24,252 bases of DNA from a virus: the IMG/VR virus record IMGVR_UViG_3300047494_000271, positions 1-24,252 of that record; one strand, written 5' to 3'. The position numbers were made by a program, and so were the translations under genes. The notes under the pieces are model-generated. The model made no database searches. It worked only from the letters and a program-made list of their open reading frames with translations, and was not told where the DNA came from. Below, in pieces: positions 9,226 to 17,924 of this stretch. Numbering within the stretch: the stretch's first letter is position 1; each line of letters starts with the position of its first letter.

Positions 9226-9594
9226 CTATACGCTCACTGAAAACGAAAGAACCTGCGTTGACTTCATAACCGCGTCAACATACCTTATCTGGACATAGAC
9301 GCTGCCATCACATACCGATTGAACGTCGATCACAGGCTCCGGAAGCCGTAACACAGATGATTCCATGAATATTTGGCTCCTTATGCGAGAGCGAATTGCG
9401 GTCGCGTTGCATGGATCTCCAATGAATTGGGCCAGTCCTGCGCCATAAGTTGGTTGCCAAACATAGTCGCCAGGGTTTGTAAGAAGCCGCCGCAAAATCC
9501 GCTGCTGACCCAACGTAGTGCCGAAGGCCAGCTCCAAGTCACCTGTCGGATTCAGCAGCAGGTCGCCGCCCCAAAGCAACGCCGCATCCTGCAT
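9226..9594 (-). CDS. Baseplate wedge protein W (gp25-like)
   Basis: 122 residues, typical of the gpW/gp25 lysozyme-like baseplate family. A GGA-type ribosome-binding site (GAGGA) is 8 nt before the ATG. Visible family features are the LLLNPTGDLELAFGTTLGQQRILRRLLTNPGDY segment and VWQPTYGAGLAQFIGDP, the usual strand-turn-helix with conserved Gly. The middle helix IRSRIRSQIFMESSVLRLPEPVIDVQSV follows. gp25-like subunits join wedges and nucleate the sheath. Gene order V-W-J-I agrees with P2-type baseplates. Confidence 0.87.
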   Translation of the reverse strand: MQDAALLWGGDLLLNPTGDLELAFGTTLGQQRILRRLLTNPGDYVWQPTYGAGLAQFIGDPCNATAIRSRIRSQIFMESSVLRLPEPVIDVQSVCDGSVYVQIRYVDAVMKSTQVLSFSVSV

Positions 9595-9606: not shown

Positions 9607-10131
9607 CTAATCCGTTGGTTCGGGTCCGGCGTTGGACGGAGGATGCACATGCTCATTGTAATGACCGCGCAACTGCGCGAGGGACCCGTGCGAATCGAAG
9701 ACATCTCCGCTGACACGAAAGTCTCCGCTATGCGTCCATACCGATGCGGAACTCTCTATTGAGCCATCATTGTGCAATTTCAGGAAACTGCCTGTCTTAT
9801 GCTGCAACCATAGTTCACCCACGGGGATCTCCGGCGGTGGCACAGAGCTCGACCAGAGGCGGGCAACAATTATGCCTTATTCTGAATCTCCTTCTTGCCA
9901 AATGACCAGCACCTGGTCTCCGGGTGCCGGCAAACATGCCAGGCCCCAGCCGGCCCCAACCCAGGCCGACGCTATGGGTAGCCACCCCGACAACACACCC
10001 TCCGGCTGAACACTGACCCGTGCCGAATACGTTGCGGGATTGATGGATGATATGATTGCAAGCCGAGGCTGTGCCCACCCTTGATCAAGTTGCGAGGCCT
10101 GAGCTTTGAGTTGATTTAAGAAATTGTCCAA
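9607..10131 (-). pseudogene. Baseplate spike gpV interrupted by one in-frame TAA
   Basis: A 174-codon frame is split by one TAA at 9877-9879. The first part (84 residues, apparent TTG start with GAGGA about 10 nt upstream) has the gpV N-terminal OB-fold pattern: PRLAIISSINPATYSARVSVQPEG, then SGWLPIASAW and GDQVLVIWQEGD. The same frame continues after the stop with GIIVARLWSSS and then HKTGSFLKLHNDGSIE and HVHPP, the usual remainder of a P2 gpV central spike. The usual sequence here is GDxExGVVxGRLWS, so TAA replaces a single codon and nothing else is lost. A GTG at 9843 could restart the second part, but I see no ribosome-binding site before it. gpV forms the membrane-piercing tip and is essential, so this is a nonsense mutation, a read-through stop, a sequencing error or two reinitiating pieces. 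Confidence 0.75.
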
Positions 10132-11114: not shown

Positions 11115-11295
11115 ACCCTACTCCTCCACCCGCAGAGACGTCAGCATCTGGGACAACGAGTGGAGTGAGCCCATCAAGCCATGGATCGTTCAGACCGCTA
11201 AGCGCCGCGATCCGGTTCCATTGTGTCGCGTCATCGAGGAGCTGCGCTGCCACAGCGAATAATGTCCCTCCCGCTACGGTCACATTTTGCGTCAA
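11107..11295 (-). CDS. LysM-type tail protein X
   Basis: 62 residues, the normal size of gpX-like tail proteins. The apparent start is TTG at 11293-11295, overlapping the preceding TGA stop (TTGA). The pattern TVAGGTLFAVAAQLLDDATQWNRIAALSGLNDPWLDGLTPLVVP is a LysM-like fold: glycine-rich entry, a helix with LLDDATQW, then NRIAALNG-type turn and a VVP ending. X proteins sit at the tube-hub junction and are usually found between U and D genes, as here. Confidence 0.72.
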   Translation of the reverse strand: MTQNVTVAGGTLFAVAAQLLDDATQWNRIAALSGLNDPWLDGLTPLVVPDADVSAGGGVGYE

Positions 11296-11972
11296 ACCAG
11301 GATGCCTTCTAAATTCGTGATTGTCCGCCCCACGTAGCCTTGTGCTGTTGCGAGTTGCGCCAAAGTTCCGGACGAACTCACCAGTTCTGACAAGTCTTGC
11401 GAGTCAAGTCCCTGCTCCGCCGTTCCAATGTCGGACGTAATCGCCGTCAAGACAGCACTCAAGTCGCTCAATACCAATGGAATTCCACTTGCGCCTATAG
11501 TCAATGCAGACGGCGTGGAAAGTGTCGTCACGATGGAGGAAACGTTGACATATGATGAAGCCAATGAAAGATCACCAAGCACACTTGAAGCCAAGTCTAG
11601 CGTCAGAGCTGTGCTTGACTGAGCAAGATCGCTCACCACGAGACACTCGATCCGATAAGTAATCCACCATGGATTACAGAAGTCGAACTCGAGTTGGCCG
11701 ATAATCACGTCATAGCAAAATGCATCCCATGCAAGCGCCAGCGCTGCTCCACTCACCCGCATGGCGTCCAATGTGCGCGCACGATCACCAGCATCTGAGC
11801 CTGATAGCACGCCATGCCAGGTCAAGGCGCAGTCATCACGCCCCATCGTGTCTATAATTCTCGCGCCGCCGATCAGGTTATGAATGATCGCCTTCTGCGC
11901 GCCGCCAAATCGGACGTTTGCGGGAACTTCAAAACCGTCAAGCTGCAAAGTCCCGAGAGTCATCAAGGCCAT
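11292..11972 (-). CDS. P2 gpU-like or DNA-circulation-type tail protein
   Basis: 226 residues from the ATG at 11970-11972, which shares its A with the TGA of the tape-measure gene (TGATG). A longer frame upstream lies inside that gene and is rejected. The N-terminal half (LDGFEVPANVRFGGAQKAIIHNLIGGARIIDTMGRDDCALTWHGVLSGSDAGDRA) resembles the beta-rich gpU-type or tail completion/DNA circularisation family. The segment QLEFDFCNPWWITYRIECLVV follows, then a Ser/Thr/Leu-rich C-terminal helical region. Family is inferred from the pattern and from its place between tape measure and X. Confidence 0.6.
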   Translation of the reverse strand: MALMTLGTLQLDGFEVPANVRFGGAQKAIIHNLIGGARIIDTMGRDDCALTWHGVLSGSDAGDRARTLDAMRVSGAALALAWDAFCYDVIIGQLEFDFCNPWWITYRIECLVVSDLAQSSTALTLDLASSVLGDLSLASSYVNVSSIVTTLSTPSALTIGASGIPLVLSDLSAVLTAITSDIGTAEQGLDSQDLSELVSSSGTLAQLATAQGYVGRTITNLEGILV

Positions 11973-13051
11973 CAGGTCCCCACAGTTGCGCCAGGCAACA
12001 GTTGCCCCCGGCGCCCATCGAACCCAGTCGGCCCTGCGGATGCGCGTCCAGCCTCTCGCGCCAGAAAGCGGGACATCCACCTGCCAACCAACATTCCGTC
12101 CAAATATACGTCGCCTTCAACGGGGCCCTGCGTCCCGGCCTTAGGTTCAGCATCGGCCGACGCAGATGAAGCCCTTGCGGGCGCCAACGCAACGCTCGCT
12201 AAAGATGGCGCGGCACTTGATGGTTGCGCTACCTGCTCATGCCATGCATCGCGTCCAACACCTTCGATTTCTTGTCGAGCTGCCGGAGCCCTTTCCGAGT
12301 GCTGTTCGATCCTACGGCCGAAGTCCGGCACATCGGTCGGCCCATAGCTACGCAACGCTCTGTTGACATCCCCACGATTTGTCTGATTCAAAGAAGACCG
12401 GTCTCTACCTTCCGATCTCATCTCTGTTAAGGACGCGGCGGACGATGTCAGAAGTGCTGGCCTCGCCGTTGCCGTCGGCTGTTGAACCCGGATAGTCGGA
12501 ACGCTGTTCCATCTTTCTGAATCTGAAGTTCCCGTAACCTGAATTGCCGTGAATGACGTGCTTTCCGGCGTCACGGCGGGGCTCTGCTCCCGGACCGATC
12601 CATTCATGCCTGTCTTAGGCGGAGCCACATCGACCGCAGGCGCAGAGGGTTTCTGAGCAGATGACTGGACCGCATCCGGACTGAGCGCCTGCTTTGCAGT
12701 TGGCTCGGCCCAATCGCCCCTATCTGTATTATTCGTTTGAGACGCATCCGTATCCGTCAACAATGGCGGTGCGCGCACCAGATCCATCGCCAACGCGCTT
12801 GGCGTTGCTTGATCCATCGGGACCGTGATCGCCGGCGTGCCCGCTGCCTCTCCTCTCACGTCCTGCCCGCCGCCTCGTGGTTGGATTGCCGGATTGGCCT
12901 TCGCCGCCGTCTTCCGCAACTCCGCAATCGAGACCCCACCTGTCGCTAGTACCCGCTGCAGCGTGGCGATTTCCTCGCGAGCGCGCGCTATCCCCTCCGA
13001 CACACCGTCATTAAGGGAAAGCGTGACCCCAACTTCATAAGTCTCGCTCAT
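11972..13051 (-). CDS. Putative tail tape measure protein, short and low-complexity
   Basis: 359 residues. The N-terminus (VGVTLSLNDGVSEGIARAREEIATLQRVLAT) has the short strand plus helix usual at the start of tape measures. The C-terminal 47 residues from 313 (GDVYLDGMLVGRWMSRFLAR, then PTGFDGRRGQLLPG) match the end I associate with tape measures of alphaproteobacterial prophages. Residues about 55-310 are rich in Pro, Ala, Ser, Thr and Gln, with no transmembrane segment or lytic motif, and look disordered rather than coiled. It overlaps the previous gene by 4 nt (ATGA). A tape measure of this length would imply a tail of very roughly 50 nm at about 0.15 nm per residue. It is shorter than usual for a sheath-bearing phage, so it may be reduced. 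Confidence 0.62.
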   Translation of the reverse strand: MSETYEVGVTLSLNDGVSEGIARAREEIATLQRVLATGGVSIAELRKTAAKANPAIQPRGGGQDVRGEAAGTPAITVPMDQATPSALAMDLVRAPPLLTDTDASQTNNTDRGDWAEPTAKQALSPDAVQSSAQKPSAPAVDVAPPKTGMNGSVREQSPAVTPESTSFTAIQVTGTSDSERWNSVPTIRVQQPTATARPALLTSSAASLTEMRSEGRDRSSLNQTNRGDVNRALRSYGPTDVPDFGRRIEQHSERAPAARQEIEGVGRDAWHEQVAQPSSAAPSLASVALAPARASSASADAEPKAGTQGPVEGDVYLDGMLVGRWMSRFLAREAGRASAGPTGFDGRRGQLLPGATVGT

Positions 13052-13323: not shown

Positions 13324-13819
13324 CGCTGCGTTCTCCAGTCATAATCAAGCCCATCAAAACGCCCCATGACGACAACCCAGACGGTCCGTTCATCCGGCGA
13401 GAGACTGAACGCAACATCAAACGGCACCCCGTTCTTGACCAAATAGAGGCTGTCAACCAGATCGGGGTGCCAACTCAGTTTCCCTGGGCGGCACTCCCCA
13501 ACGCAGGATTGGCCTCTGATGACAATGCAGCGGCAACCGCTGATATACCTATGTCGCCCAACCGGCCAACCAGCGCTTCAACCTGTCCTTCCGTAACGGG
13601 AGGCGGGACCGGAACCGTATCAACGCAGACGACGGATGCCGCAAGCATTGCCATCCCCAGATAAGCATCGTTTTGGGACAATGTCGGCCCAATTGCCTTA
13701 AACAAGCGAAGACGTTCAAGTGCAGACATCCGTCGCAACACGAGTTCTCGTCCACTCGCGTCACTGGTCACGATGGTCGCTGACGATGCCGCTATAATTT
13801 GAGCGCTCGGCGAGCCCAT
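13308..13819 (-). CDS. Tail assembly chaperone, -1 frameshift extended product
   Basis: A -1 slip on GGGAAAC (13478-13484) moves the ribosome past the stop at 13475-13477. The new frame reads LSWHPDLVDSLYLVKNGVPF, then DVAFSLSPDERTVWVVVMGR and FDGLDYDWRTQRWKKP, ending at TAG 13308-13310. The extension is 56 residues and the fused protein 170. The extension (NGVPFDVAFSL, WVVVMG, FDW) looks like the C-terminal domain of phage tail assembly chaperones, which recruits tube subunits to the tape measure. No standard single-frame annotation would report it, because the second part has no independent start codon suited to it. The mechanism is inferred from the site; the frames were read directly. Confidence 0.8.
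13423..13484 (-). promoter_or_regulatory. Programmed -1 ribosomal frameshift signal
   Basis: Reading the minus strand: the heptamer G GGA AAC (13484-13478) lies in the zero frame, then a 6-nt spacer TGAGTT containing the TGA, then GGCACCCCG (13471-13463) which pairs perfectly with CGGGGTGCC (13431-13423). Inside the loop TTGAC (13456-13452) pairs with GTCAA (13439-13435). The pattern X XXY YYZ with 6 nt to a GC-rich 9-bp stem is what stimulates -1 slipping in known phage chaperone genes. All parts were read directly from the sequence. Confidence 0.85.
13475..13819 (-). CDS. Tail assembly chaperone, short (unshifted) product
   Basis: 114 residues from the ATG at 13817-13819, which overlaps the tube stop by 1 nt (TGATG). 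The product (RELVLRRMSALERLRLFKAIGPTLSQ and on) has the helical, hydrophobic character of gpG-type chaperones that bind the tape measure. The stop TGA lies directly after AAC, at 13475-13477. In lambda-like and P2-like phages the short form is made in excess and the extended form is a minor product. The equivalent signal here is described at the frameshift site. Confidence 0.8.
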   Translation of the reverse strand: MGSPSAQIIAASSATIVTSDASGRELVLRRMSALERLRLFKAIGPTLSQNDAYLGMAMLAASVVCVDTVPVPPPVTEGQVEALVGRLGDIGISAVAAALSSEANPALGSAAQGN

Positions 13820-14247
13820 CAAATTCTCTGCCGCTGAGTTGCAAAGAATTCGAGTTTTTGTTTGACCGTCGCATCGCCTCGCCAGGTGCCAGCGTTTACG
13901 AGCTTGAAGACTACGCCGCTATATTGATACGTGGACGTCGACCCGTCCACTTCCGTGATATACTGGTAGACTGTACCCGCCGGCAAGGAGCCCTGGGATA
14001 GGAAAGCCTGTTCAGACGCCGCGATGAAGTCATCAACTGCGCTTGTGCCCCGCTCCACCTCAAAGCTTCCTTCCCAACCTTTGGGCAACTCTGCACCCAT
14101 TGGGATCCCGTCAAGTCGGTCCAGTCGAACCGATTGCGTCATTTGTCTACTTTCGAAGCCTGTCACATAGGTTAGGTCGACACGCCCCTGCGGCCCCATC
14201 ACCACAAGTTGGCAATCGCGCCCGATCGAAAATGAGTTGATCGGCAT
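13819..14247 (-). CDS. Tail tube protein
   Basis: 142 residues, usual for the inner tube of contractile tails. It starts with the family-like MPINSFSIGRDCQLVVMGPQG and continues VDLTYVTGFESRQMTQSVRLDRLDG, IPMGAELPKGWEGSFEVERGT and DGSTSTYQYSGVVFKLVNAG, TWRGDATVKQKLEFFATQRQRI. The alternating strand pattern fits a two-sheet beta-barrel of a tube subunit. GGAG is about 10 nt before the ATG. It lies 62 nt after the sheath, the sheath-tube order of P2-like tails, and polymerises inside the sheath as the DNA channel. Confidence 0.85.
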   Translation of the reverse strand: MPINSFSIGRDCQLVVMGPQGRVDLTYVTGFESRQMTQSVRLDRLDGIPMGAELPKGWEGSFEVERGTSAVDDFIAASEQAFLSQGSLPAGTVYQYITEVDGSTSTYQYSGVVFKLVNAGTWRGDATVKQKLEFFATQRQRI

Positions 14248-16902: not shown

Positions 16903-17526
16903 TCACGCGCCAACTTGTCGCAGCAGCAAGCGCCAGCCAAATATTGTCTCCTCCGCGCTGCCCACGGTGAAGGCATTTCCGAGATCATCGCTCACCACAT
17001 CTGCAGTTTGCGGTGTTGCCGGAAGTCGAGGAAGGAGCAGCGTCCAGCCACCAAATCGCGTCTCACCTATGCGACTCCCACCATGACCCCCTGCTTCCAA
17101 CAGGCTACCCGGCCACAAGATGACCAACGGCTCACCGGGCGTCGCAAAGAAGCCGCTATAGCCGCCCTGCATTGCAGCGGTGGGCCTAACAAGCGTCACA
17201 ACACGATTGACTTGCACACATTGCACCGGCGCCCCCGGCGTCTGAACCGCCACAAAATACGTGTCGCGGTCACCAACCAGATAATCACCCGGCTGCGTAT
17301 AAGATGCGTCAAATACGCCCTGCCAGACTGCTTGGCCGTACGAAGCCCCTCTATTTAGTCCCGCGTCGCCCGGCGTAAAATAAGCGGATAACTCGATGAC
17401 GCGCCCGCGTGGATTGACCGGCTGTAGCGGTCCGCTAGGTCGATAAACTGTATAGGGCGTGCCGCATTTTCGCGCGGCCACCCCGAGTCCTTTACTAATT
17501 TTGTCCTGCAATGCGCCAGCATCCAT
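16903..17526 (-). CDS. Putative head-tail connector/neck protein
   Basis: 207 residues when started at MDAGALQDKI, whose ATG shares its A with the TAA of the preceding gene (TAATG). An upstream TTG or ATG-type start exists in the shadow of that gene. The stretch ISKGLGVAARKCGTPYTVYRPSGPLQPVNPRG is like small phage proteins that follow the capsid and portal. Strand-rich C-terminus: GGWTLLLPRLPATPQTADVVSDDLGNAFTVG. It is probably a connector or minor head protein, but the assignment rests on position and general resemblance. Confidence 0.55.
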   Translation of the reverse strand: MDAGALQDKISKGLGVAARKCGTPYTVYRPSGPLQPVNPRGRVIELSAYFTPGDAGLNRGASYGQAVWQGVFDASYTQPGDYLVGDRDTYFVAVQTPGAPVQCVQVNRVVTLVRPTAAMQGGYSGFFATPGEPLVILWPGSLLEAGGHGGSRIGETRFGGWTLLLPRLPATPQTADVVSDDLGNAFTVGSAEETIFGWRLLLRQVGA

Positions 17527-17900
17527 TACACTGTCCAACTCACACCAGGCCCTGCAAGTCCGCTCCCCTCCGGCACCCCAAAAAAACTGCAGAGTCTTCG
17601 GCGCCACTCATCCAGCAGGAATAACCGTTGTGTAACCTCGTCTCGGTTATGTCGCCAAGAGGCCGCTGCATCGCTATCAAGGTTGTCGCTTGCCGCAGGG
17701 ACAGTCATCTCCAACTGCGTCAGTGTGGACAGGTATCCGATGACAACGGTTATCTCCGCAGCAGACAGATTGTTCATCCGATACTCAAGTAGTCCATAAG
17801 CAGTATAGAAGCGCCAGCCGATGTTTCCTGCTGGATCAGCACCATAGGCAGGATATCCGCAAAAGCGGCGAATGTCGGTTTTCTGCTGATCGGTCAACAT
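17526..17900 (-). CDS. Putative head-completion/adaptor protein
   Basis: 124 residues starting MLTDQQKTDI, with GGAG 6 nt before the ATG; an upstream GTG four codons earlier overlaps that site and is less likely. The protein is mostly helical: RRFCGYPAYGADP, WRFYTAYGLLEYRMNNLSAAEITVVIGYL, and RHNRDEVTQRLFLLDEWRRRL. A small all-helical protein right after the major capsid gene suits a head-completion protein of the gp15/gp6 type. Family not named from sequence alone. Confidence 0.5.
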   Translation of the reverse strand: MLTDQQKTDIRRFCGYPAYGADPAGNIGWRFYTAYGLLEYRMNNLSAAEITVVIGYLSTLTQLEMTVPAASDNLDSDAAASWRHNRDEVTQRLFLLDEWRRRLCSFFGVPEGSGLAGPGVSWTV

Positions 17901-17924
17901 GCGCGTCTCCACCCCGCCGACAAA

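Follow-up and report, generated by a model that had tools for sequence, protein, structure and literature searches.

The window analysed here, which is the entire 24,252-base virus contig IMGVR_UViG_3300047494_000271, raises the question of why a gene for a central tail spike of the gpV type should carry a TAA codon in its interior. The original prediction left three options for this stop: inactivation of the gene, readthrough or suppression, and an assembly error.

The spike gene and its surroundings

The conserved genes of the contig lie on the minus strand and run from the terminase through the head, sheath, tube and baseplate genes to the tail fibres; some of the gene names used here are our own assignments, based on position and on the usual order of such genes. 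The upstream gpD-like gene shares 16 bases with the start of the spike gene and, together with the baseplate wedge and J-like genes downstream, provides the context expected for a spike gene (table 1). The contig had been described as a prophage, a label that our analysis does not bear out: the record is a virus contig standing by itself, in whose scanned genes no integrase was recognised and which has no host flank, although its ends may be missing.

Table 1. Coordinates of the spike gene, its parts and its neighbours in the window.
Feature	Position	Strand	Evidence
gpD-like tail protein gene, upstream of spike; stop TAA	10116..11114	-	phrog_52, E=1e-22
Central spike gene of gpV type; 174 codons, one of them an internal stop; starts at TTG, ends at TAG	10131..9607	-	translation; PF04717; match to P2 gpV
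Premature TAA, codon 85	9879..9877	-	translation; sense codon in 44 viral and 2 MAG relatives
Predicted translated fragment of 84 residues: N-terminal helix and most of OB-fold	9880..10131	-	PF04717, E=7.6e-8 alone; model strands
Predicted untranslated part: final OB strand (86-93), strands of the needle (107-127), HVH at the tip (161-163)	9610..9876	-	alignment, model
Baseplate wedge (gpW/gp46-like) gene, downstream of spike, intact	9226..9594	-	phrog_120 and phrog_975; full length compared with relatives
Baseplate J-like gene, intact; stop TAA	8106..9224	-	phrog_6, E=3e-49

As predicted originally, a single TAA lies inside the gpV gene: codon 85 is the sole interruption of an otherwise unbroken 174-codon frame, and both halves fit one protein. 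Reading the frame through the TAA for profile and structure searches, we obtained a match to Phage_base_V (PF04717) above the cut-off (E=3.5e-10), further matches to phage baseplate PHROGs, and a profile match to the solved structure of P2 gpV (3qr8) over residues 30-142. An AlphaFold2 monomer model of moderate confidence (mean pLDDT 69), built from 30 homologues, retrieved the R2 pyocin spike (4s37) and P2 gpV (3qr8) as its top Foldseek matches (E about 1e-6). The C-terminal HxH tip, where P2 gpV and related spikes have their iron site (PMC6116203), is present past the stop, and HVH or HTH is conserved there in nearly all relatives. The frame encodes a central spike of the P2 gpV/Mu gp45 type and is the contig's only match to this protein; no second spike gene is found on it.

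Elsewhere on the contig, the leftmost complete gene (314-2101), located after the tail-fibre genes, encodes a GDSL-lipase/acylhydrolase domain (PF13472, E=7.8e-10), and its product is possibly a fibre- or polysaccharide-modifying enzyme. The tape-measure-like gene (11972-13051) is conserved at both ends, while its middle (12160-12900) is almost without matches in any relative. In one relative (L040:2113-3834, corresponding to window positions 11292-13051) the tape-measure-like and DNA-circularisation-like genes are fused into a single frame of 574 codons, while in the window and in loci L011 and L013 the two are separate, the tape-measure-like gene ending on its own and overlapping the next gene in a different frame; the fusion would be explained by a small indel in L040 or by a sequencing error there. 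The tail-tube-like gene (13819-14247) is 93-95% identical to those of relatives whose spikes are only about 67-72% identical, a contrast that may stem from recombination or from conservation that varies strongly along the tail module.

Relatives of the spike and the integrity of the genome

The same protein is encoded without an internal stop at all 44 IMG/VR loci and on both MAG contigs in which we found it, one of the latter being labelled Acetobacteraceae and coming from a bog. At each of these loci the two halves of the window frame align to one continuous protein. The gpV-type spike is thus a single uninterrupted gene in every relative and not in the window, whose copy is a broken member of the family. 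Complete copies in the closest group are all exactly 174 amino acids long, the length that the window protein would have if the TAA were a residue; the more distant loci L041-L045 encode 181-199 amino acids. The original prediction expected CAA, CAG, GAA or a similar codon at the site in relatives; codon 85 specifies His at 24 of the viral loci, Gln at 18, Asn at one and Val at one, with a stop at none. TAA is one substitution away from a Gln codon. Start codons in the group vary among TTG, GTG and ATG, and the TTG start of the window gene is therefore not a second defect.

A degenerate pattern search of the viral collection for contigs with TAA or TAG at the codon-85 site found none, and a 25-base pattern likewise recovered no record of the same strain with either allele, in a collection that, as searched, may omit near-identical records. 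Named phages provide no DNA match and only distant protein matches, the best of them (39% over half of the protein) being to the Komagataeibacter phages phiKX1 and phiKX2. When viral contigs were scanned with the gpI-like protein, nothing was confirmed.

The half of the gene after the stop appears undecayed. Mean pN/pS between the window and its relatives is 0.20 before the stop and 0.30 after it, compared with 0.23 and 0.34 for pairs of relatives at the corresponding sites, these ratios being read against synonymous sites that are nearly saturated (pS about 0.75), which implies a long branch leading to the window. Of the window's residues, 4 of 83 before the stop and 5 of 89 after it occur in no relative, within the leave-one-out range of the relatives themselves. 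This lack of decay would be compatible with a stop that arose at the very tip of the branch, with one that is not real, and with a product that is still made.

The claim that no other damage is visible holds as well. In ORF-to-ORF comparison with relatives, every other window gene with homologues is full length, and the 24 genes of the window contain one internal TAA in 7,054 codons and no internal TAG or TGA, unlike recoded phages, in which the same stop falls in frame in many genes. As a yardstick, 17 window genes were compared with the DNA of relatives in 370 gene-by-locus alignments (about 88,000 residues; many of the contigs are near-duplicates, and the effective number is smaller), and no true internal stop was encountered. 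Seven stops were flagged in the relatives' DNA-circularisation-like gene, but all lie upstream of its true start and were discounted. An internal stop is therefore not routine noise in this collection, although a lone case among the roughly 7,000 codons of the window fits either an infrequent mutation or an infrequent base error.

Explanations for the stop

A naturally split gene, with two cooperating proteins and the second made from an internal GTG at 9843, is mechanically feasible in that a 78-codon ORF does begin there. This GTG, however, lacks a Shine-Dalgarno-like sequence upstream and is not conserved as a start, its product would omit OB strand 86-93, and, when relatives were inspected for two separate conserved genes, none had them; we therefore consider such a split highly improbable. 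Readthrough or suppression, by a host ochre suppressor tRNA or by leaky termination yielding a little full-length spike, would accord with the normal constraint on the downstream half and with the fact that the spike is required in few copies per virion. In-frame stops with downstream constraint have also been reported in prokaryotes (PMC7918605). Against it, the stop is common to no relative, failing the conservation expected of programmed or selected readthrough, and no other in-frame stop occurs in the window genes. The suppressor tRNA proposed as a check was looked for, and the record, which may be incomplete, contains no tRNA of any kind. The genes gpJ, gpD and 17526-17912 all end in TAA, at or close to where their counterparts in relatives end; the base after the premature stop is G, and the following 97 bases fold no better than shuffled sequences (z 0.39), giving no sign of a readthrough-promoting structure. 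The stop-codon reassignments that PMC11210395 describes for phages involve TAG and TGA. Readthrough in general is thus unlikely, its specific form in which spike production depends on the suppressor tRNA of a particular host is far-fetched, and reassignment of TAA is rejected on account of the lone internal TAA, the missing tRNA and the use of TAA as an ordinary terminator. Of the three options originally offered, inactivation and assembly error, both agreeing with a private stop among intact relatives, are those that stand.

Between these two, we favour a single, private nonsense change of very recent origin in an ordinary spike gene of the gpV type, leaving the genome defective for the spike, with a probability of roughly one half. 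Translation would start at the TTG at 10131 and end after 84 residues, with model strands at 20-31, 36-41, 51-53 and 73-79, just before the strand 86-93 that completes the OB-fold; it would never reach the HxH tip or the membrane-piercing needle. Since the last OB strand, needle and tip would be lost, the fragment should not form a working spike and is predicted to be inactive. Supporting a nonsense change are the continuous gene in all relatives, with Gln, a codon of which is a single substitution from TAA, at the site in 18 of them, the undecayed half after the stop, the full length of the other conserved genes, the position of the truncation, and the normal use of TAA to end gpD and gpJ. 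On the opposite side, no closer relative places the mutation on a dated branch, and a free phage population is unlikely to have lost an essential gene in its majority allele, a consideration that points to either a base error or a clonal copy that is integrated. A consensus error of the metagenome assembly (through base calling, damage or strain mixing), the phage gene itself being intact, is accordingly a serious contender, if a somewhat less probable one: a single base is affected on one isolated contig, all else including the downstream half is intact, as is every relative, and no second record of the strain was found. The absence of true stops from the yardstick alignments suggests that such errors are rare in the collection, but the same figure bounds real nonsense changes too and so does not separate the two. 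On balance we tentatively infer that the base at codon 85 is real.

Comparison with known systems

A lone unshared stop in one metagenomic contig is just what one would expect to see after a recent nonsense mutation, or from a base error, and it gives no ground for claiming recoding or a split gene. The most likely interpretation is an ordinary recent mutation or sequencing error rather than a new kind of gene. Belinky et al. (PMC7918605) anticipated that many of the in-frame stops that are not shared would be artefacts, and found that in-frame stops tend to persist for short times only. The prokaryotic in-frame stops with readthrough considered there resemble ours in the constraint downstream, but the stops on which that study relied were common to orthologues, whereas the window stop is shared by none. 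Phages with reassigned stop codons (translation tables 15 and 4; PMC11210395) likewise have stops inside late structural genes; the window differs in having one TAA in one gene, no suppressor tRNA and TAA at the ends of other genes. Closer parallels are nonsense-mutated phage genes and pseudogenes, with one premature stop, the remaining frame intact and intact relatives, though the window stop is that of a metagenome consensus.

The analysis also delimits an uncultured gpV subfamily of 174-amino-acid spikes, with one relative on the Acetobacteraceae MAG contig from a bog. Its window member shares with the spikes of P2 (gpV), Mu (gp45) and R2 pyocin the N-terminal helix, the OB-fold, the short beta needle, the C-terminal HxH and the flanking gpD-, gpW- and gpJ-like genes; it differs from them in the stop at codon 85 and is otherwise an ordinary, shorter spike.
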